Source of the DNA: a bacterium
Lineage (GTDB): Bacteria; Patescibacteriota; Microgenomatia; UBA1406; GWC2-37-13
Length of the DNA stretch: 64,000 nucleotides
Direction: 5' to 3'
Assembly (NCBI GenBank): GCA_021796235.1
Contig: JAJYOJ010000004.1
Span: 1 to 64,000, forward strand
A model generated the notes under the pieces. It made no database searches. It was not told the origin of the DNA and saw only the letters and a program-made list of their open reading frames with translations. Within the stretch, counting starts at the first letter, position 1. Every line of letters starts with the position of its first letter. Below, one piece after another: positions 5,678 through 49,550 of the stretch. Both the position numbers and the translations under genes were made by a program.

Positions 5678-8011
5678 TTATTTGGCTGATACAATTCCAG
5701 CAACTTCAACTGTTCCTCCGCAATATTTAGTAATTTTTTCGAGGGTCTGTTTTAAAGTTTCTTCTACCATTGTTCTATTGATTTCATAAACTCCATCAAT
5801 ATTAATTAAAAGATTTTTAGTTTTTTCGGTTACCGCTGTTCTTTGGGCATCGCGATAGTTAAAGTCGATATTATAGCCGCCGATCTGATCGAAATAAGCT
5901 ACTTCTTCGGGTTTGTATTCCGTTGGTTCGTTATCTCCAAGAAGCAATATTTTTTCCTCACGTTTGGGAAAACGCAAAATGGTAGGTAATTTAATCTTAT
6001 CTAGATCAAAAGCACCAGAGGAAATTCGGTTTTTCATAACAACTAGATTATAGGCATCAACGCAAGAATTGATTTCATACAAGCCTTTTTTCAGAGCAAT
6101 ACGCCGGAGAAGAGCTTCGGGGGAGGGGCGGCGTGAATGCCAATCAACTTTCATTTCCCGATACATCCGTCGATAACTTTGTATCTCGCGGAATGAGCCT
6201 AGCATTTCATTTGTCAGCCCAGATTGAGTTTTAATAAATGCAGCAATTTCTTTTTGCAAATCGAGGCTGATTTTATTAATTGTTACATTCTTTATTATTG
6301 CTATTCCAATATTTATTGAGGGAAATTTTTCGGCAAGCGTTTTAGCAATGGAAAAAATTTTTTCATCGTTTAAATCCGGGAAATTAGTTTTTTTAGTTTG
6401 GCTGACTGGTCCACCTTTTTGTTTTACTGAATTAAGCAGTTTTTCCTTTGTGACATTAACACCCAATTCCAAAATTAAGTCAGCGGCTTTGGGACCAAAA
6501 TCGTCTGCAGTCAAAGATTGATAAAATGCCTTAAATGCTTCCTTAGGTGGAATTTTACTGCTTGCTAGTGAGGCATAGACTGTTTTTTGAAGCGTTTCCC
6601 TATCAGAATTTTTTATATCTAATTTATCAGCAAGCGATTTAAGGAATAACTTCTGGGCCGAGTTTAGTTTATTGCTGGATTTTTTTTCTGAAGCTTGTGA
6701 TGTCGGTCCAGCTTCCTGTGAATAGTTTTTTAAATACACTTGGGCATAAACGATACGTTCTTCCAAAATTTCCTTTTCATCTTGAGTTAGTTTTGAGCCT
6801 TTTTGTTTTTCAAAAAAACTAAGAAGATCAGTTTTAGTTTTCACAAGATTTGTAACCGTTCGGAAGCGAGGTAAATAAAGCCTTTTTTCGGGAAGAGGCT
6901 TAACTGCCGAAAGTTCAACAATACGGGCAAATTCTTCAAGAACTTCACCCGGTTTACCTTCGGGAAGTTTTTTTTCAATTTTTGAAAAATAAGCATTGAG
7001 ACAGCGATCATAGTCATCGAAAAGATTGAGAATTGTTACGCCATAAGGATTGAAGTCTAAATGTGTTCCAATCGGAGTGCGGACAATCAAAAAGCGAAAG
7101 ACATCAGGCGGTAATATTCGTGAAACTTCTTTAGCCGAAGTACCAATACCTTTTGATGACGACATTTTTTTCCCGCCGATTGTAAACCATTCGTAAGCCG
7201 GAGGATAGGTCGGAGGATAATTCAATATTTCTTCACAGATTGCCTGAGCCATATCATAGGAACCTCCGGAAGACATGTGATCTTTTCCCGCCCCTTCTAT
7301 TGTAACTCCGATTACTTTCCAGTGAGCCGGCCAATCAACCTTCCAATGGAATTTGCCGTTTCCATCAAAAGGCGAGATGACTCCTTGATGTCCGCAGCCC
7401 ATTGCCCAGGCAGCCATCTTGGGTTCGCAGCGATAATGAACTAGTTTTCCATCCCATTTATAAACCTGGGTGGTTCCGATTTTTCCGCACTTTTGGCAAA
7501 TAACCTGAAATGGATACCAGTCCTCGGGTTTTTCGGCCTTTGCAACACGGGCGTAGATTTCCCTAACTTTTTTCGCCTGGTTTAAGACCTCTTCGATCAC
7601 AGGGTTCATTTTTCCCGACCGGTATAACTTTGATGACCAGATGATTTGTGGGTGGCAGTTGATCGATTCAAAAACCTCGGTAAATTCCTTTGCATAATAC
7701 TCGGCAAAGCTCTTATAATTTTTTTCCGGAGCGGGAATATTGCAAAGCGGCATTCCGGCATATTTTTCCCATTTTTCGTAATTTAGATACGAGGGTACCG
7801 CATCCATCTGATCAAGATCATTAAAAACGTAAGAAAACTTTGCGTTAACGCCATTTTCAAGAAGGACTTTATAAATTAAATCATGGATAATAACGCCCCG
7901 CAATGATCCGACATGGATTCTCCCGGAAGGAGTTTTCATGTCATCAACCAACTCACTTTTCTTATTATGCAAACTTATTATTTTTTTAACCTCGCGGTCA
8001 ACCCAGATCAT
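5678..8011 (-). CDS. lysS: class I lysyl-tRNA synthetase fused to a PheRS-beta-type B3/4 domain
   Basis: The N-terminal ~520 residues are an archaeal-type class I LysRS: GRIHVGSLRG near 30 (HIGH-like), a Cys-rich zinc insertion (CQKCGKIG) and KKMSSSKG near 282 (KMSKS). From about residue 540 to the end the protein changes to a B3/4 domain like that of PheRS beta and of solo COG3382 proteins: EIQSYRRMYREM, RPSPEALLRRI, CVDAYNLVV, RDAQRTAV, and an ending with TKNLLINIDGV. In PheRS this domain edits mischarged tRNA. Class I LysRS is normally about 500-550 aa, so 777 aa reflects the fusion. It overlaps the upstream M20 gene by 4 bp (ATGA) and lies in the T-box operon. Confidence 0.9.
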   Translation of the reverse strand: MIWVDREVKKIISLHNKKSELVDDMKTPSGRIHVGSLRGVIIHDLIYKVLLENGVNAKFSYVFNDLDQMDAVPSYLNYEKWEKYAGMPLCNIPAPEKNYKSFAEYYAKEFTEVFESINCHPQIIWSSKLYRSGKMNPVIEEVLNQAKKVREIYARVAKAEKPEDWYPFQVICQKCGKIGTTQVYKWDGKLVHYRCEPKMAAWAMGCGHQGVISPFDGNGKFHWKVDWPAHWKVIGVTIEGAGKDHMSSGGSYDMAQAICEEILNYPPTYPPAYEWFTIGGKKMSSSKGIGTSAKEVSRILPPDVFRFLIVRTPIGTHLDFNPYGVTILNLFDDYDRCLNAYFSKIEKKLPEGKPGEVLEEFARIVELSAVKPLPEKRLYLPRFRTVTNLVKTKTDLLSFFEKQKGSKLTQDEKEILEERIVYAQVYLKNYSQEAGPTSQASEKKSSNKLNSAQKLFLKSLADKLDIKNSDRETLQKTVYASLASSKIPPKEAFKAFYQSLTADDFGPKAADLILELGVNVTKEKLLNSVKQKGGPVSQTKKTNFPDLNDEKIFSIAKTLAEKFPSINIGIAIIKNVTINKISLDLQKEIAAFIKTQSGLTNEMLGSFREIQSYRRMYREMKVDWHSRRPSPEALLRRIALKKGLYEINSCVDAYNLVVMKNRISSGAFDLDKIKLPTILRFPKREEKILLLGDNEPTEYKPEEVAYFDQIGGYNIDFNYRDAQRTAVTEKTKNLLINIDGVYEINRTMVEETLKQTLEKITKYCGGTVEVAGIVSAK

Positions 8012-9135
8012 ACTTGATTATCGACTTTATTTAAAAAGTCATTTATTATTATATAGAGTTTTTCAAGAGAAGACAAAGAAACCCATTCATTGGGAGCATG
8101 GGCATTTCCTCCGTTTGGACCAATACCAAGTACCGTTATTCCGTGAACCCCGAAAATATTTTCATCCGAAATAGATGTACGGAAATAAGGAAGAGCTTTT
8201 TTACCGATTTTTTCGCTTACAGACTGCTTTAGCATTTTTAAATATTTGTTGTTCTTGCTTATTTCATAACTATTTAAAAAAGGAGTGTCTCTTTTAAGAA
8301 AAGAGACATTTACCGAAAAATAATTTCCATATTTTCTCTTGATAATTTTTGCTAAATTCTTTATTTCTTCTAATAGCTGTTTATTTGTTTTTGGCGGTAA
8401 TATTGATGAATCTAATTCAAGGCTTATTTCATGCGGAGTAGACATGCCTGTTGTTTTTGATTCAATTCTTCTTGCGAAAATGAACCCGTTTTTTTTATTT
8501 GAAAATTTATTTAATCTTTTTAATTCATTCAAAAAATCGGATAGGAATAAATTAATATCAAGCGCTGGATGATACAAGGCATAATGAAGAGGAAGGCCCT
8601 TTATTTTAATTACATAGACTGCGCGACCTGGCCTTGCAATGACGATACCTCTATTCTTGTAATAAAAGGCGGGTTCTGGCGAAACAACGCATTCGACGCC
8701 TTTCATAAAGTTTGAATTTATTAACCTATACCCGCCTTTTGAAATATTTTCTTCATCTACGCAAAAGGCTATTTTTAACGTAAAATTTTTTGGTTGAAAA
8801 TTTAGGAAATTTAAAATATTAACTGCCATTCCACCTTTCATATCCCAGGAGCCCAAACCATAAGCTTTATTTCCGACCACGGTTAATTTAAACGGTTTAG
8901 TTTTCCATCCGTTCGCGACGCCGATGGTATCAAGGTGAGAGTAAAGAAGAACGCTTTTTTTACCTTTACCTTTTTCAACGACAAGATTAAATCTGTTATT
9001 TTCTACTCGTTGTTTTTGTATAAAACCATGATCTTCTAAAAGGTGATTCAAATGCATACAAAGATTTTTTTCTTCAGGATAATGGGAGTCAATTGATACG
9101 AGTTTATTTAAAAAATCTAATATTTTATCTCCCAT
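8008..9135 (-). CDS. M20-family metallopeptidase/deacylase (ArgE/DapE-like), copy 1
   Basis: Zinc-dependent amidohydrolase of the family that includes ArgE, DapE, carnosinase-like and N-acyl-amino-acid hydrolases. The metal ligands are in order: LYSHLDTI (His), GLGSWDMKGG (Asp), CVDEEN (catalytic Glu and ligand Glu), SPEPA (Glu) and GGNAHAPNEW (His). It is 375 aa with the usual inserted dimerisation domain and has no signal peptide. It overlaps the upstream GNAT gene by 11 bp and the LysRS gene by 4 bp, so it is translationally coupled. A paralogue at 45875-47011 also follows a GNAT gene. The substrate is not known; the context suggests an acylated amino acid or dipeptide. Confidence 0.88.
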   Translation of the reverse strand: MGDKILDFLNKLVSIDSHYPEEKNLCMHLNHLLEDHGFIQKQRVENNRFNLVVEKGKGKKSVLLYSHLDTIGVANGWKTKPFKLTVVGNKAYGLGSWDMKGGMAVNILNFLNFQPKNFTLKIAFCVDEENISKGGYRLINSNFMKGVECVVSPEPAFYYKNRGIVIARPGRAVYVIKIKGLPLHYALYHPALDINLFLSDFLNELKRLNKFSNKKNGFIFARRIESKTTGMSTPHEISLELDSSILPPKTNKQLLEEIKNLAKIIKRKYGNYFSVNVSFLKRDTPFLNSYEISKNNKYLKMLKQSVSEKIGKKALPYFRTSISDENIFGVHGITVLGIGPNGGNAHAPNEWVSLSSLEKLYIIINDFLNKVDNQV

Positions 9136-10198
9136 ATAGTTGAAGTAATCTTTCTCTGGCTAAATAGGTCACTAAAAGATCGTTTTGAATACTTTCTGGT
9201 CGAGCATCATTTGAATCATTGATTATATTGACATGCCGGCGAAGAATCCCAGGTGCAAAGCCATATTTTTCGCAAGCAGATAAAGTAGATTCTCTTCCCT
9301 GTTTTTTAGCAGAAATTAATACGGGAGGCAAGGGTTGTGGAATAGAGATATCTGCATTAGATTCCGAATAAATTAAATGGGTACCATTTCTAGCTTCATT
9401 TCTCATAAGTTCGGTTGCAACATGAGTATACAACCCTTTACCTCGATATATTTTTCCGTTTAAACCTTCACGGGTAAATCCTTCTGTTATTTCTCCGATA
9501 TTAAAAACAACAGGCTGGCCGTTGCGAGCTAAATTTAAGCTTGCGTGTTCGATCATACCCGTACTCACAATGGATCCTTCATCAAACAAGGCTACTAAAA
9601 CATTATGCGTATTTAAAAGCATTTCGGAAACGTTTTCAGATGAATATCTAAACGCTCTATATAGATCAGCATACTGACGTTGGATATCAGGATTTTGTCT
9701 ATCAGCCTCGGTCAATATCCTTATAGAATATTCATCCGGCAAAGATTGATAAGACATAGTATTCGGCGACTCAAAAATAGTTCGAGCCTTAGCTATTTCT
9801 GTTCCGATTATTTCAGAGGAAGGCGTCCTTCCCGGAGTGTTTTTTCCTAAATAAATTATTGCGCAATCATCTAGTGAGTCTACTCTACATCCGGATAGAG
9901 GAATTATTCCTTCAAGATATGGTTGAATAAAATTTCTGTCTACGCCTAGGTCTTGTATAGACCGATTTGATACAAAAACTCTTGTGGTGTACCTTGATAT
10001 GTCTTCATCAAAAGGATAGGAAGAAAAATCGGCAACAAAGCCAATAAAATCTTTCCCATTTTCAATTACGTGCGGGTAGATATTTTTTTTTCTTCCCTCA
10101 GAAGCACGCCTGGGAAATAACGACACATCTCCTATACTTGTCGGAGCGGGAGCGGGGATATCATGTATATTATTTGTTACAACTTCATCACTTATCAT
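9125..10198 (-). CDS. GNAT-family N-acetyltransferase, first gene of the T-box operon
   Basis: 357 residues. The C-terminal half (about 155-300) has the GNAT layout, with the acetyl-CoA pyrophosphate loop at IYRGKGLYTHV. It recalls beta-lysine acetyltransferase (AblB)-like proteins, a weak resemblance. The N-terminal ~150 residues are not recognised. The ATG follows the T-tract of the T-box terminator directly, with no Shine-Dalgarno. It is followed by M20 hydrolase, LysRS and HD genes on the same transcript. Putative role: acetylation of an amino acid or amine induced when a tRNA is uncharged. Confidence 0.75.
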   Translation of the reverse strand: MISDEVVTNNIHDIPAPAPTSIGDVSLFPRRASEGRKKNIYPHVIENGKDFIGFVADFSSYPFDEDISRYTTRVFVSNRSIQDLGVDRNFIQPYLEGIIPLSGCRVDSLDDCAIIYLGKNTPGRTPSSEIIGTEIAKARTIFESPNTMSYQSLPDEYSIRILTEADRQNPDIQRQYADLYRAFRYSSENVSEMLLNTHNVLVALFDEGSIVSTGMIEHASLNLARNGQPVVFNIGEITEGFTREGLNGKIYRGKGLYTHVATELMRNEARNGTHLIYSESNADISIPQPLPPVLISAKKQGRESTLSACEKYGFAPGILRRHVNIINDSNDARPESIQNDLLVTYLARERLLQLYGR

Positions 10199-10224
10199 AA
10201 AAAAACCGTCCTTGGAAAATTAGT

Positions 10225-10240
10225 TCCGCCAACTGACGGA
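10225..10240. repeat. TCCGCC-type palindrome in the T-box terminator loop
   Basis: TCCGCCAACTGACGGA, one mismatch from the perfect palindrome at 10412-10427. It forms the tip of the T-box terminator hairpin. It is unrelated in sequence to the CACCC REP family. Confidence 0.55.
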
Positions 10241-10411
10241 TTAACCTTTCAAGGACGGAGAATCACAATTCAACCGCGGTACCACCTTGATTTAATAAAG
10301 CTTATTTTCTGTTTCGTCAACAGACTTCGACTTTACCACTCTTTCCTGATTTAATCAGAATGCTGCTTTTGACGGGCAGGCTGCCGTCGGGTTCTACTTT
10401 GACTCTCCAAA

Positions 10412-10427
10412 TCCGCCAACTGGCGGA
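10412..10427. repeat. TCCGCC-type palindrome in the T-box leader
   Basis: TCCGCCAACTGGCGGA, a perfect palindrome with 7-bp arms, in the 5' part of the T-box leader. Near-identical to the copy at 10225-10240. Confidence 0.55.
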
Positions 10428-10506
10428 AAAGGCGGTTCATTTCTTCCCGAAGCAGTGAAGTCTTGCCCAAAAATTTTTAGGGGTCTTCACTATTGCTTTC
10501 TTGAAT

Positions 10507-10534
10507 ATTCTAGCAAAAAATTATTTAATGTCAA
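10507..10534 (-). promoter_or_regulatory. promoter of the T-box operon
   Basis: On the - strand, TTGACA (10529-10534), a 16-nt spacer and TAGAAT (10507-10512). The -35 lies inside the 3' end of greA. The transcription start is expected near 10500, giving a leader of about 300 nt. Confidence 0.75.
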
Positions 10535-10979
10535 CTACTTTATATTTTATTTTTCCTGCTGGGGTATCGGCCCAAACATCATCACCAACTTTTTTATTGA
10601 GAAGAGCTGCGCCGATTGGCGAGGTAAGAGAAAGTTTTTTTTGCATTGGATTTGCTTCGTATTCACCGACAATTTGAAATATGTCTTCTTTACCGTCTAT
10701 TCCGACAGTTACATAGTTTCCCAATGCAACGGTCTGAGAATGATTGTGATTTTCAGCGACTACAACGTTTTTTAAAATCTCCTCGATTTCCTGGATCCTT
10801 CCTTCAATAAAAGCTAGCTCCTCCTTGGCAGCGACATATTCACTGTTTTCCGATAAATCACCCATGGCACGAGCCTTTTGTAGCCGGTCAACGGCGTAAG
10901 GCCGTTTGGTTTTTTTTAGTTCATCTAATTCAGAAACGATTTTTTGATAGCCTTCTTTGGTAAGTTCTACTTTTTTCAT
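10521..10979 (-). CDS. greA: transcription elongation factor GreA
   Basis: Rescues backtracked RNA polymerase by stimulating transcript cleavage. At 152 aa it has the normal layout: N-terminal coiled coil with the acidic tip around DLSENSEYVAAKEE (about 41-54), and a C-terminal FKBP-like domain ending with SPIGAALLNKKVGDDV. It is preceded by a strong promoter and, right before the ATG, an intrinsic terminator hairpin. No Shine-Dalgarno is visible. The promoter of the next operon overlaps its 3' end. Confidence 0.97.
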   Translation of the reverse strand: MKKVELTKEGYQKIVSELDELKKTKRPYAVDRLQKARAMGDLSENSEYVAAKEELAFIEGRIQEIEEILKNVVVAENHNHSQTVALGNYVTVGIDGKEDIFQIVGEYEANPMQKKLSLTSPIGAALLNKKVGDDVWADTPAGKIKYKVVDIK

Positions 10980-21180: not shown

Positions 21181-21440
21181 AATGGTTTAAGAAGCTCAAT
21201 GAAAAATATTAATTTTAAGAGGGTAGTTGGTTATTTGTTTTTTCTTTCAAAAAAACATTAAAGTTGACAACCGCAACTTGGAGGTCCCCGCAGATGATAT
21301 TTCGAACACCTCCACTTCGTATCCCCGCCAATGACGGGGCCACACGCTTGAATATTGATAATAACTACGCCTTTTCAAAGAGCTTTTCAGCAAAGGATAG
21401 CAAAAGGAAAACTTGTTGTCAAATCTGCTAAAATTGAAGG
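21181..21440. other. 260-bp intergenic region with a short palindrome
   Basis: No gene seen. It holds a hairpin-forming CCCCGCCAATGACGGGG (about 21323-21339), unlike the REP family, and a TAAAAT -10 (21429-21434) placed 6 nt before the CvpA-CAP start. Confidence 0.5.
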
Positions 21441-45874: not shown

Positions 45875-47011
45875 TTACAAAAGCTTTTCCAGAATTTGTT
45901 CCAAGCTATTAATAGAATCTATCTGTACCCATTCATTGGCGCCGTGACGATTACCTCCGATCGTCCCGATACAACAGGAAGTGCTTTTAAATTGGGATAC
46001 AAGCAAAGCCAAATCGACGTAGCCAGACCTAGAAGGGTCGGTAAAATCCGCTCTCCCAATAGATTCAGTTACCTTGTCGGTTATATACTTTAATTTTGAT
46101 CTATATGAGTACCAAGGATTTAAATTGTGGGTGATTTTTTTAACCATAAACTTTATTTTCTGTTCCAAAAACCAATTATTTAAGCTATTAATGACGAGCT
46201 GCAGATTTATTTTTCGGTTGGTACGTATTTCCAAGGTTGCCTCGAGAAAGTCGGGAATGTTATTGCCGTTTTTTCCTAGCGTAACGTCTTTATTTCGTTT
46301 AATAAATAAACCGGATCTTAAATAGGAAATATTCAGAGTTGAACTACCGAGGTCTTTGTCCGGGTTTTTTTTCAATAATTCCTCAAGTTTTCCTATAGTT
46401 TTATTAAATCCGATCAATACATTGTTTCCATTAGTTTGATTGGCAGAGTGGCCGGATTTTCCAAGACACTCTATGTCAATTTCGATCAAACCTCGACAGC
46501 AGTTTCTTATCTTAAGGTTCTCACCGTCAGTTGAAATTATCTTTTCGGACTTCAGGATTTTTTTATATTTACCAATGAAAGAATACATACCTTTAAACTC
46601 ATATTCTTCATCAACATAAAACAAAAACATAATTTTTTGGTCTTTAATCCTTTCCGCCAACTTCATAAGCACTGCAACATTGGATTTGGTATCAGCCGTT
46701 CCTAATCCGTAGAGCTTATTTTTTATTCGTGTGGCTACATATTTTTCTGTCAAGCAACCCTGTTTAGGCTGGACCGTATCTATGTGGTCGATAAATAGAA
46801 TATCAACCTGCAAAAAATCTTTTTTTTTACAGCTTTTTGAGTAAGCAATTACATTAAAGCGATTACCTTCAACCGGAGATTTTTCCACGACCAATTTAGT
46901 ATTTTTTTTTAGATATCGAAATATAAATTTAGCAATTTGTACTTCATTATTAACGGAATCGACGTAACTCGGGATTGATATAAGTTTCTTAAGTAAATTC
47001 AGGGTATTCAT
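45875..47011 (-). CDS. M20-family metallopeptidase/deacylase, copy 2
   Basis: 378 residues with all metal ligands of the M20 fold: LFIDHIDTV (His), GLGTADTKSN (Asp), YVDEEYEF (Glu-Glu), ISTDGENL (acidic) and GGNRHGANEW (His). It differs from copy 1 (8008-9135) over the dimerisation domain. It starts 2 nt after the GNAT gene under the histidine-type attenuator. Substrate unknown; regulation points to a histidine-containing acylated or dipeptide compound (inference). Confidence 0.88.
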   Translation of the reverse strand: MNTLNLLKKLISIPSYVDSVNNEVQIAKFIFRYLKKNTKLVVEKSPVEGNRFNVIAYSKSCKKKDFLQVDILFIDHIDTVQPKQGCLTEKYVATRIKNKLYGLGTADTKSNVAVLMKLAERIKDQKIMFLFYVDEEYEFKGMYSFIGKYKKILKSEKIISTDGENLKIRNCCRGLIEIDIECLGKSGHSANQTNGNNVLIGFNKTIGKLEELLKKNPDKDLGSSTLNISYLRSGLFIKRNKDVTLGKNGNNIPDFLEATLEIRTNRKINLQLVINSLNNWFLEQKIKFMVKKITHNLNPWYSYRSKLKYITDKVTESIGRADFTDPSRSGYVDLALLVSQFKSTSCCIGTIGGNRHGANEWVQIDSINSLEQILEKLL

Positions 47012-47013
47012 AT

Positions 47014-47745
47014 TTATTTTCTTCGCGCAACATAAAACATGCGCGGATTTCCTTCCACCATATAAGTGTCGCCACCGGGAACGAAGTATTGAAAGTCATA
47101 TCCGATCACATCCAGCTGCTCTTTTTTTAAAGACAACCAGGGTTTATTAATAGTTCTTCCGACAATCACTTCCGTTCCCAAATCAATCGCCGAGTTTATT
47201 CTTACTTGACTTAATATTCTGCCTGCGCCCTGTTGCTGTTTTGTCGGAGTCACGCAGGTTTCGTTGTCGTAAAAAACCATAATGTTTGGGGCTAACTCCA
47301 TAGTGTTTACTATAGAATCAAGGATTTCCTTCTTGTTTCCGTACTTGATTTTTACCAGTTCTTCTAGTTCAGTCGTTCCTCCAGTTGTAAACCCGATAAC
47401 TTTTCCGTTTTCTTTGGCTTTAATTAACGTGCCGGGAGTAAATTCGGAAAGTGTTTTAGGAAAATAATTATTTATTAGTCCATCTTTTGGGTATGCTTCG
47501 CCTAGAGAGTTACCCTTACAGTTTGGGCAGCAGGTATCTACGGAAGAAAATGTTCCGCAATCTGCACATTTAAATTTTTCCCACCAGGGTGGCCCGCCAA
47601 AACCTAACTGATAAACCGAGGCCATTTCTTCCAATTCTCTCGGTGCAATAGATGATAATGCTCTTATGGCTTCCGAAGGATTGTTATAAACAAAAACGGA
47701 AAGAGAAATACCCGCGACCTTTTTTTCTTTTGATTGTATTTCCAT
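47014..47745 (-). CDS. GNAT-like acetyltransferase with a zinc ribbon, behind the histidine attenuator
   Basis: 243 residues. About 60-85 contain a zinc-ribbon pattern (CADC ... CCPNCKG). A GNAT-like core follows, with TKQQQGAGRILSQVRINSAIDLG as the acetyl-CoA loop and a terminal beta strand. The acceptor is unknown. Paralogous in role to the GNAT at 9125-10198, as both are followed by an M20 gene and both sit behind an amino-acid-responsive leader. It starts downstream of the terminator with no Shine-Dalgarno. Confidence 0.72.
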   Translation of the reverse strand: MEIQSKEKKVAGISLSVFVYNNPSEAIRALSSIAPRELEEMASVYQLGFGGPPWWEKFKCADCGTFSSVDTCCPNCKGNSLGEAYPKDGLINNYFPKTLSEFTPGTLIKAKENGKVIGFTTGGTTELEELVKIKYGNKKEILDSIVNTMELAPNIMVFYDNETCVTPTKQQQGAGRILSQVRINSAIDLGTEVIVGRTINKPWLSLKKEQLDVIGYDFQYFVPGGDTYMVEGNPRMFYVARRK

Positions 47746-47765
47746 AATTTTAAAATTAAATTATT

Positions 47766-47838
47766 AAAAAACCCGCCTTATAAAGCGGGGTAGGAACGAG
47801 AAATTGATAAATATTAAATTACCCCGCAAAAAGCGGGT
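47766..47838 (-). promoter_or_regulatory. histidine-type transcription attenuator
   Basis: On the - strand four segments alternate: 1 ACCCGC (47833-47838), 2 GCGGGGTA (47820-47827), 3 TACCCCGC (47785-47792), 4 GGCGGGT (47771-47777), then T6 (47766-47771). Pairing 1:2 lets the 3:4 terminator form; pairing 2:3 prevents it. Segments 1 and 2 are the end of the leader peptide gene. Confidence 0.85.
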
Positions 47839-47878
47839 GATGATGTAGAGAGCCATTAATGGAATTCATTTTTTTCAT
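47819..47878 (-). CDS. 19-residue leader peptide with His-His-His
   Basis: Reads MKKMNSINGSLHHHPLFAG then TAA (complement 47819-47878). Three consecutive His codons (CAT CAT CAC) lie right before segment 1 of the attenuator, and the stop codon lies at the end of segment 2. This is the arrangement of hisL-type leaders: stalling at His codons frees segment 2 for the antiterminator. The TTGACA promoter lies about 55 nt upstream. Confidence 0.8.
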   Translation of the reverse strand: MKKMNSINGSLHHHPLFAG

Positions 47879-47910
47879 AAAGATGAATACAGTTATATTA
47901 TTGTATTAGT

Positions 47911-47960
47911 ATGTTAACATGATATTATAAGTTTGTCAAGAGAGATTTTAGTGATATAAT
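47911..47960. promoter_or_regulatory. divergent promoters of the GNAT-M20 leader and the YerC-like gene, with a palindrome
   Basis: Leftward: TTGACA (complement 47934-47939), 17 nt, TAACAT (47911-47916). Rightward: TTGTCA (47933-47938), 16 nt, TATAAT (47955-47960), ATG 5 nt later. The -35 boxes overlap. ATGTTAACAT (47911-47920), a perfect palindrome, covers the leftward -10 and is a candidate operator for the YerC-like regulator. Confidence 0.65.
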
Positions 47961-47965
47961 TTTTT

Positions 47966-48256
47966 ATGCAAAAAACCGAATTTTACAGACCAAAAAATAC
48001 GAAGGAAAAACTTTTAGTTGATGCGTTCTTAAAATTAAAAACGCAGCAGGACATGGCTGATTTTTTAAGGGATTTATTAACTCTGCCGGAAATAGAAGAG
48101 TTTGCAAACAGACTTGAAATTGCTAGACTACTTCTTAAAAGGGGTTCTTATAAACGAATTGCCAAACAGACAGGGGTATCAACAACAACTGTTACTCGCG
48201 TTGCCCATTGGCTCTTCAAAGGCTGCGGAGGATATCAAAAGGTTTTAAAAAAATAA
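47966..48256 (+). CDS. TrpR/YerC/YecD-family transcriptional regulator
   Basis: 96 residues, all-alpha Trp-repressor-like fold: MADFLRDLLTLPEIEEFANRLEIARLLL then the helix-turn-helix SYKRIAKQTGVSTTTVTRVAHWL (quoted in parts). YerC-type proteins have been proposed as histidine regulators (HisR) in Firmicutes. Here it is divergent from the histidine-attenuated operon. Probably leaderless. A good candidate for a histidine-responsive repressor (inference). Confidence 0.9.
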   Translation: MQKTEFYRPKNTKEKLLVDAFLKLKTQQDMADFLRDLLTLPEIEEFANRLEIARLLLKRGSYKRIAKQTGVSTTTVTRVAHWLFKGCGGYQKVLKK

Positions 48257-49462
48257 TCATTTCCAGTCGGGTACGTAATACTTTCTACCTTTTAAATTTT
48301 TCGGCATATATTCCTGGATAATTTTTCGGCCGGTTTCTTTTTCAACCAACCAGGGGTAGCGGACGTGGCCCCGGCCATAACCTAAGGATCTCATTACTTT
48401 ATTGGCGGGGTTTCTTAAATGCAGAGGGATCGGGTCAAGGTTTTCTTCGTCGATGTCGGATAAAGCTTGAGAGATACCGGCTGTCGAAGCAATTGATTTT
48501 TTGGCAGTTGCTAAATAAGTGGCGGTTTGAGCCAGGATCAGGGAAGCCTCGGGCATACCGATCATGTGAACCGCCTGCATTGCGGCAGTAGCAACAACCA
48601 AAGCCGTGGGTTGGGCGTTACCTATATCTTCGCTCGCAAAAATTACCATTCGTCTGGCAATAAAGACTGGATCTTCTCCGGCCTTAATCATTCTCGCCAG
48701 ATAATGCAAGGTTGCGTCGGGCTGCGAACCGCGCAGGCTTTTTATAAATGCCGAAATCGTGTCGTAGTGCCAGTCGCCCTTTTTATCGTAATAAATTGCT
48801 TTTTGCTGAACCGCATCTTCAGCAATTTTCAGTGTTATATGTTTATTCAAACTCGCTGCCAACTCAACCGCATTGATTGCAGTTCTACCGTCTCCATTGG
48901 CATGTTTGATGATATGTGCAAGCGCTTCTTTATCCCATTTGTGCTGCGGAAAATATGTAAGAGCTCTTTTTACTATTGTTGCAATTTCCTTTTCGTTTAA
49001 GGAATAGAGAACATAAATCTGGCTACGCGAAACCAAAGGCGCAATGACTTCGAATCCCGGATTTTCGGTTGTTGCTCCAATTAAGGTTATGGTCCCATCT
49101 TCAACATGAGGAAGAAATGCATCTTGCTGGGCCTTATTGAAACGGTGTATTTCGTCAATAAAAAGTACCGTCTGTTTTTTGAATAGAGTTTTGTCATCTT
49201 TTGCCTTAGCAATAACCTTTCGGACCTCGGCTAAATTACTTGTAACAGCAGAAAACGGTATAAAATCTGCATTGACATAATGGGCAATAAGTCGGGCGAG
49301 TGTAGTTTTTCCGCACCCCGGGGGTCCCCAGAGAACCATCGATGTTATCTGGCCGGATTCAAGCATCCTCCTTATAAACCTGCCTTTACCGACAAGGTGT
49401 TCCTGACCTACAAATTCATCCAAAGTTTTGGGTCGCATCCGATCGGCAAGTGGAGTATCCAT
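48257..49462 (-). CDS. rarA: replication-associated recombination ATPase RarA (MgsA)
   Basis: 401 residues from ATG 49462 (MDTPLADRMRPKTLDEFVGQEHLVG), the family N-terminus; an upstream in-frame extension is not supported. AAA domain WGPPGCGKTTLARLIA and FIDEIHRFNKAQQDAFLPHVE (in part), then the lid and the RarA C-terminal tetramerisation domain (GSQPDATLHYLARMI, YGRGHVRYP). Acts at stalled forks. A GAACN4GTTC palindrome lies between promoter and start. Confidence 0.95.
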   Translation of the reverse strand: MDTPLADRMRPKTLDEFVGQEHLVGKGRFIRRMLESGQITSMVLWGPPGCGKTTLARLIAHYVNADFIPFSAVTSNLAEVRKVIAKAKDDKTLFKKQTVLFIDEIHRFNKAQQDAFLPHVEDGTITLIGATTENPGFEVIAPLVSRSQIYVLYSLNEKEIATIVKRALTYFPQHKWDKEALAHIIKHANGDGRTAINAVELAASLNKHITLKIAEDAVQQKAIYYDKKGDWHYDTISAFIKSLRGSQPDATLHYLARMIKAGEDPVFIARRMVIFASEDIGNAQPTALVVATAAMQAVHMIGMPEASLILAQTATYLATAKKSIASTAGISQALSDIDEENLDPIPLHLRNPANKVMRSLGYGRGHVRYPWLVEKETGRKIIQEYMPKNLKGRKYYVPDWK

Positions 49463-49469
49463 ATTTACT

Positions 49470-49518
49470 GTGAACGCTTGTTCACTAATAGAATATATTA
49501 TGCGGAAACAGATTTCAA
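49470..49518 (-). promoter_or_regulatory. rarA promoter and candidate LexA (SOS) box
   Basis: On the - strand, TTGAAA (49513-49518), 17 nt, TATTCT (49490-49495), then GTGAACAAGCGTTCAC (complement 49470-49485) over the likely +1. Its core GAAC-AAGC-GTTC matches the Gram-positive LexA box form GAACN4GTTC. Confidence 0.5.
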
Positions 49519-49531
49519 GCGGAATTCTTCC

Positions 49532-49550
49532 GTACACCCTAAGGGTGTAC
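49532..49550. repeat. REP palindrome copy upstream of rarA
   Basis: GTACACCCTAAGGGTGTAC, 19 bp, perfect palindrome about a central A (core CACCCTAAGGGTG, 49535-49547). It lies in the intergenic region and carries a variant centre. Confidence 0.75.

Follow-up and report, generated by a model that had tools for sequence, protein, structure and literature searches.

The window analyzed here is the whole 64-kb stretch of patescibacterial DNA. Its minus strand carries a short leader followed by the genes for a GNAT-fold acetyltransferase and an M20 metallohydrolase, and the gene for a HisR-like repressor of the TrpR family is divergent from them (Table 1). The leader is 113 nt in length (47766-47878), with no clear Shine-Dalgarno sequence seen upstream of its ATG. 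The terminator, CCCGCTTTATAAGGCGGG-TTTTTT, sits between the leader and the GNAT ATG (47745), 20 nt from that start codon.

Table 1. Features of the leader-GNAT-M20 operon and the divergent HisR-like gene, in window coordinates
Feature	Position	Strand	Basis or remark
HisR-like TrpR-family repressor gene	47966..48256	+	Divergent; TIGR02531 yecD_yerC, PF01371
-35 box, TTGACA	47934..47939	-	Leader-GNAT-M20 promoter; consensus match only
Candidate HisR operator, TTAGTATGTTAACATGATA	47906..47924		Near-palindrome overlapping the -10 box
-10 box, TAACAT	47911..47916	-	17-nt spacer to the -35 box; consensus match only
Leader peptide ORF, MKKMNSINGSLHHHPLFAG then stop	47819..47878	-	19 codons
His codons CAT CAT CAC	47837..47845	-	Consecutive; from the sequence
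Segment 1, CCCGC	47833..47837	-	First base is the last base of the third His codon
Segment 2, GCGGGGTA	47820..47827	-	Overlaps the stop codon
Leader stop codon, TAA	47819..47821	-	Inside segment 2
Segment 3, TACCCCGC	47785..47792	-	Pairs with segment 2 or 4
Segment 4, GGCGGG, and U6	47772..47777 and 47766..47771	-	Intrinsic terminator; 3:4 hairpin at 47772-47789
GNAT-fold acetyltransferase gene	47014..47745	-	243 aa; Cys-rich (zinc-ribbon-like) insertion; predicted structure
M20 metallohydrolase gene	45875..47011	-	378 aa; ArgE/DapE-like; PF01546, 3.5e-14

The original prediction described a His-His-His leader followed by four segments that pair either as 2:3 or as 1:2 plus a 3:4 terminator with U6, and this description is accurate base for base. 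It also placed the His codons and the stop codon where a hisL-type mechanism needs them, and segment 1 does start from the third His codon with the stop falling in segment 2. The calculated pairing energies are -9.3 kcal/mol for 1:2, -12.2 kcal/mol for 2:3 (8 perfect pairs) and -10.0 kcal/mol for 3:4. The leader as a whole folds with z = -3.25 (1 of 200 shuffles was equally good), and dinucleotide shuffling of the spacer gives p = 0.005 for the 2:3 antiterminator. No other ORF on either strand of the 64-kb window combines a run of at least 2 His codons with a stop no more than 22 codons away and a terminator downstream. Equilibrium folding of the finished leader RNA indicates that segment 1 is able to pair with segment 4, enclosing 2:3; the switch would therefore depend on the order of synthesis and on the ribosome, as in hisL and trpL. 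A second leader with the pattern CAYCAYCAY plus T6 and a terminator was not found elsewhere in the same genome, which is weak evidence because the pattern was too short and failed to recover the window's own leader.

Among the Rfam matches up to E = 10 for the 231 nt around the leader, the His_leader family (RF00514) is absent and the only match is a sub-threshold one to Trp_leader (19.7 bits against a cut-off of 41). Nor is the leader a recognizable T-box: positions 47740-47970 have no RF00230 match, and TGGNACCGCG is absent from the leader. A 9-mer, CTCGTTCCT, at 47792-47800 on the minus strand, just before segment 3, is shared with the T-box antiterminator/terminator regions of four relatives (L032, L033, L038 and L049); in the window it could be either a T-box relic or a chance occurrence.

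The two proteins encoded behind the leader have confidently modeled folds. The AlphaFold2 model of the GNAT protein has a pLDDT of 95.1 and its best GNAT match in the PDB has Z 15.3 over 153 residues; by sequence it has no Pfam GNAT match. Its closest folds include tabtoxin resistance protein (1ghe) and phosphinothricin NAT; RimI/NatD-like and AtaT-like folds also appear in the list of matches. The M20 model (pLDDT 94.1) matches E.coli ArgE (8uw6) and DapE best, and the metal and catalytic residues H76 (21 of 22), D107, E135, E136 and H356 are conserved. No named equivalog such as ArgE, DapE or PepT can be assigned, as the NCBIfam models all score far too low, the best reaching 96 bits where 217.6 are required. 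Used as a single-sequence query, the GNAT protein retrieved only its own gene from 72 genomes of the same family, and it gave no match in a first contig scan or in plasmid and phage collections. Finding relatives required profiles and an M20 alignment.

The divergent gene product matches PF01371 with 70.1 bits and TIGR02531 with 62.9 bits, both above cut-off, which places it in the YerC/YecD branch. Its nearest PDB relative is 3g1c, a TrpR-like protein from Eubacterium eligens that has been named HisR (PMC9413887). For the Ruminococcus gnavus HisR, histidine is the ligand that stimulates DNA binding most effectively (PMC9413887). The core of the candidate operator, ATGTTAACAT, is a perfect palindrome. 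The site has a single exact match in the 922-kb genome, the next best carrying 3 mismatches, and a near-identical site lies between the HisR and GNAT genes of L074 (Roizmanbacteria). The HisR gene, this operator and the HisR-tail leaders described below were all absent from the original prediction. The genome's second TrpR-family gene (L002:1483-1734) adjoins a TrpS-like gene for tryptophanyl-tRNA synthetase, named from sequence only, and is a possible tryptophan counterpart of HisR.

Histidinol dehydrogenase (hisD) was not detected in the window genome, which appears to be auxotrophic for histidine. Its hisS gene sits away from the GNAT-M20 operon, and a search for a histidine-racemase homologue, run without a positive control, found none in this genome.

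We then compared the leader with the regions upstream of related M20 genes. A profile search for M20 yielded 55 named loci, mostly from Patescibacteria. For 35 M20 genes, the preceding 1500 nt were scanned for leaders that have a triplet of identical codons, a stop no more than 17 codons away and a terminator. Such a leader with triple His is present at 9 of the 35 loci, whereas Ile and Leu each gave one hit, both at the same locus, and the other amino acids gave none. Leaders with at least 2 His codons were also read by eye at L037, L045, L047, L048, L050, L053 and L058, those of L050 and L058 having weak antiterminators. The antiterminator is significant in 17 of 30 testable loci and, taken alone, not significant in the other 13; Fisher's combined p is 1.3e-19. 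The proposed check for the same leader in homologous operons thus came out positive, with His the only amino acid enriched as a repeated codon and the alternative pairings present. No switch is recognizable at many M20 loci, and several (e.g. L034, L051 and L056) show no sign of either an attenuator or a T-box. The original prediction had pointed to relatives that have the operon but neither His codons nor pairings as the case that would tell against it. Against the enrichment of His across relatives stands L074, the closest relative in which HisR, GNAT, M20 and the operator are arranged as in the window. Its leader, MNYSINLFSFSSIHPA followed by a stop, contains one His and thus no His run, and it has no terminator. 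Because the operon occurs there without either element, L074 in part contradicts the prediction for that lineage.

The gene neighborhoods point to the same amino acid. Although the loci were collected by the M20 motif alone, with no selection for HisS, a HisS gene lies within the flanks of up to 6 kb around M20 in 21 of 34 patescibacterial loci, and a GNAT gene often accompanies M20 and HisS. In L033 (7106-9040), GNAT and HisRS form one uninterrupted reading frame of 645 aa. Genes for tRNA-His lie within the operons of L008, L036, L038, L041, L042, L044, L057 and L061; the order is leader-tRNA-His-M20-HisS in L042 and leader-tRNA-His-M20 in L057 and L061. Histidine-racemase homologues are found under His attenuators in two operons, L048 and L117. 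In L048, an HHHH leader precedes the racemase homologue, which is followed by GNAT, an M15 peptidase, a HAD hydrolase, a nucleoside hydrolase and M20. Four loci from Daviesbacteria, Woesebacteria and Amesbacteria (L032, L033, L038 and L049) have T-boxes before M20-GNAT-HisS genes. All four contain an invariant AGUCACG, whose CAC codon would be the specifier, and, in the antiterminator bulge, a UGGG that fits discriminator base C73 of tRNA-His. These elements fall under the cut-off of the Rfam T-box model and were instead assessed from their motifs and an alignment. As separate observations, a nucleoside hydrolase gene lies beside histidine-linked genes at two distant loci (L048:3706-4617, by Pfam, and L008:372-1271, by resemblance), and HisS adjoins a related M20 gene on a contig labelled Myxococcota (L064:4494-7098).

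In other relatives the repressor gene itself appears to supply the leader peptide. HisR genes end in HHH or HH directly before the stop codon and attenuator hairpins in L041, L044, L047 and L055. Across the phylum, 138 of the 380 genomes searched carry a HisR-like gene. Among 50 sampled genes, at least 2 His residues are present in 15 of 22 long C-terminal tails compared to 1 of 28 short ones; these counts are approximate because the tail cut-offs were set by rule. The commonest doublet in the tails is HH (16 tails), with SS second (10). Under the same rule triple S and triple H are equally frequent (4 each), and the His signal therefore rests on position and on the hairpins that follow as much as on composition. 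Such tail attenuators precede hisG in four genomes, L094, L097 (with hisD), L110 and L118, and these serve as natural positive controls for histidine sensing by the device. The hisG calls are from NCBIfam for L094, L097 and L110, with L094 just under the cut-off, and from start-sequence resemblance for L118. In L117, which belongs to the same family as the window genome, the gene behind the tail attenuator is the histidine-racemase homologue. The window HisR gene is not one of those whose His-rich C-terminal codons run into an attenuator. The end of the window leader, SLHHHPLFAG followed by a stop, resembles the HisR tails SLHHHKPDSAGL, TLHHHKPKFAGL, INSLHHHKPDSAGL and INTLHHHKPKFAGL, each likewise followed by a stop. 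Tail attenuators also precede a SLOG-like gene in L091 (annotated), L092 and L103 (both by resemblance), and a conserved protein without a Pfam match in L099 and L109; these are possible new histidine-regulated genes.

We consider it very likely that the leader is a ribosome-mediated attenuator sensing charged tRNA-His on the histidine-scavenging operon of an auxotroph, with HisR as a probable additional layer. When histidyl-tRNA is scarce, the ribosome would stall on the His codons and cover segment 1, segments 2 and 3 would pair, and the polymerase would enter the GNAT-M20 genes. When it is plentiful, the ribosome would be at the stop codon in segment 2, allowing the 3:4 hairpin to form and transcription to end at U6. 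Initiation would be blocked by HisR, whose probable binding site is the palindrome over the -10 box and whose probable corepressor is histidine, such that low histidine would open both layers. The most likely role of the M20 enzyme is to free histidine from a peptide or an N-acyl-histidine that has been imported; the GNAT enzyme, we guess, acetylates an amine that contains histidine. With acyl groups added by one enzyme of the operon and removed by the other, a futile cycle would result if the two shared a substrate. Control of a non-biosynthetic operon by histidine starvation, as originally proposed, is well supported by the His-only leaders and by the links to HisRS, tRNA-His, T-boxes, HisR and the racemase homologues. 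The accompanying proposal of a salvage or acyl-histidine pathway holds up in its salvage part: because no histidinol dehydrogenase was detected, imported material is the most likely source of the histidine that the operon would release. As for acyl-histidine, it is just one candidate substrate among several.

More broadly, there is good reason to think that the operon belongs to a histidine-scavenging regulon spanning the Patescibacteria and comprising M20, the zinc-ribbon-like GNAT, HisRS, tRNA-His, the histidine-racemase homologue and sometimes hisG-hisD, with His T-boxes, HisR and His-codon attenuators as interchangeable sensors. In many lineages the HisR tail (HHH...stop) would be the leader, one ORF thus serving as both repressor and stalling sensor, and the window leader may derive from such a tail. 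This regulon has apparently not been described until now.

Several other explanations of the locus have to be weighed against histidine-controlled scavenging. The 3:4 hairpin and U6 could be the ordinary terminator of a transcript from the rarA-like gene upstream on the minus strand (48257-49537), the His run being coincidental. That gene does read towards the hairpin, ending about 480 nt upstream, and intrinsic terminators are common enough that the hairpin by itself is unremarkable. However, the interval holds a good promoter and a 19-codon ORF, segments 1 and 2 fit precisely with the antiterminator significance given above, and the same His-specific device recurs before M20 relatives, so that the comparative data already disfavor this reading and we regard it as very improbable. 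It is also distinctly improbable, though slightly less so, that repression by HisR is the sole working control and that the leader has decayed or no longer works, as is apparently the case in L074. The palindrome over the -10 box is common to the window and L074, where the His run and terminator are missing, but the window leader retains all of its segments, three His codons and U6, and HisR and an attenuator occur together commonly in relatives.

Two further alternatives concern what the enzymes do. In one, which is improbable, GNAT (together with M20) targets histidyl-tRNA or nascent N-termini as opposed to free metabolites. The shared GNAT-HisRS reading frame in L033 and the RimI/NatD-like and AtaT-like folds among the GNAT matches would suit this role, whereas ArgE/DapE-type M20 enzymes have small amides as substrates, and the racemase homologue and hisG in the regulon indicate small-molecule histidine. 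In the other, the operon is protective and controlled by histidine starvation: GNAT would acetylate a toxic histidine analogue or a HisRS inhibitor mimicking histidyl-adenylate, M20 would hydrolyze it, and induction would follow because HisRS is blocked. The kinship of the GNAT fold with acetyltransferases of amino-acid analogues (1ghe and phosphinothricin NAT) and the linkage to HisRS are consistent with protection, and a starvation switch would sense HisRS inhibition too. Yet the wide and conserved company of tRNA-His, HisRS and histidine-racemase homologues suits nutrition better, the genome is apparently auxotrophic, and the pairing of M20 with a synthetase apparently recurs for lysine in the window; we therefore consider a protective operon unlikely. 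Histidine scavenging under attenuator control remains our preferred reading.

The mechanistic kind is known. Like hisL of E.coli and related gammaproteobacteria (RF00514), the window leader combines a His-codon peptide, 1:2, 2:3 and 3:4 hairpins, a stop codon in segment 2 and a U-tract terminator before the operon. The E.coli hisL leader has seven His codons, whereas the window leader has three, lacks an RF00514 match, controls GNAT-M20 and not histidine biosynthesis, and lies alongside a HisR gene. What is new is the scavenging target and a phylum for which we found no report: in literature mostly outside subscription journals, no paper tied attenuators or T-boxes to Patescibacteria. Candidate His attenuators in Firmicutes combine attenuator and terminator hairpins with a short leader that contains three to five His codons; they precede histidine biosynthesis operons, and all are in genomes that lack HisR (PMC9413887). 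Here, in contrast, HisR and an attenuator co-occur, before scavenging genes. The window repressor resembles the known HisR/YerC proteins in its TIGR02531/PF01371 assignment, its best PDB match (3g1c) and possible autoregulation, and its candidate palindromic site may correspond to the 20-bp palindromic operator that this branch has at histidine genes, but many patescibacterial HisR genes differ in having His-rich C-terminal codons that run into an attenuator; Patescibacteria go unmentioned in the text of the HisR paper (PMC9413887). In relatives, His-type T-boxes would regulate this set of M20-GNAT-HisS genes; T-boxes, unlike the window leader, sense uncharged tRNA directly. The trpR-trpBA operon of Chlamydia trachomatis has a trpL leader, which to our knowledge is not within the repressor ORF. 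A paper on that operon places a TrpR-family repressor at the main promoter and discusses attenuation in the intergenic stretch that follows the repressor gene (PMC7755916). There the amino acid is tryptophan and the targets are biosynthetic, whereas here it is histidine.

Amino-acid acquisition by Patescibacteria, tiny bacteria with reduced genomes and probable dependence on hosts, is poorly understood, and where a starvation switch reveals the amino acid concerned, otherwise anonymous hydrolases and acetyltransferases acquire a testable function. A repressor gene whose 3' end doubles as an attenuator leader peptide would, if confirmed, be an unusually compact double sensor. The pairing of M20 with an aminoacyl-tRNA synthetase, which apparently recurs in the window for lysine, suggests a general scavenging scheme. 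In that region (5678-10543, minus strand), a sub-threshold Rfam T-box match (40.9 bits) is followed by a 357-aa ORF without a Pfam match, an M20 gene and a class I LysRS carrying a B3/4 domain; the 357-aa protein could not be shown to belong to the same family as the window GNAT. The window also contains a glmS ribozyme riboswitch at 21227-21359 on the minus strand, above the Rfam gathering score.
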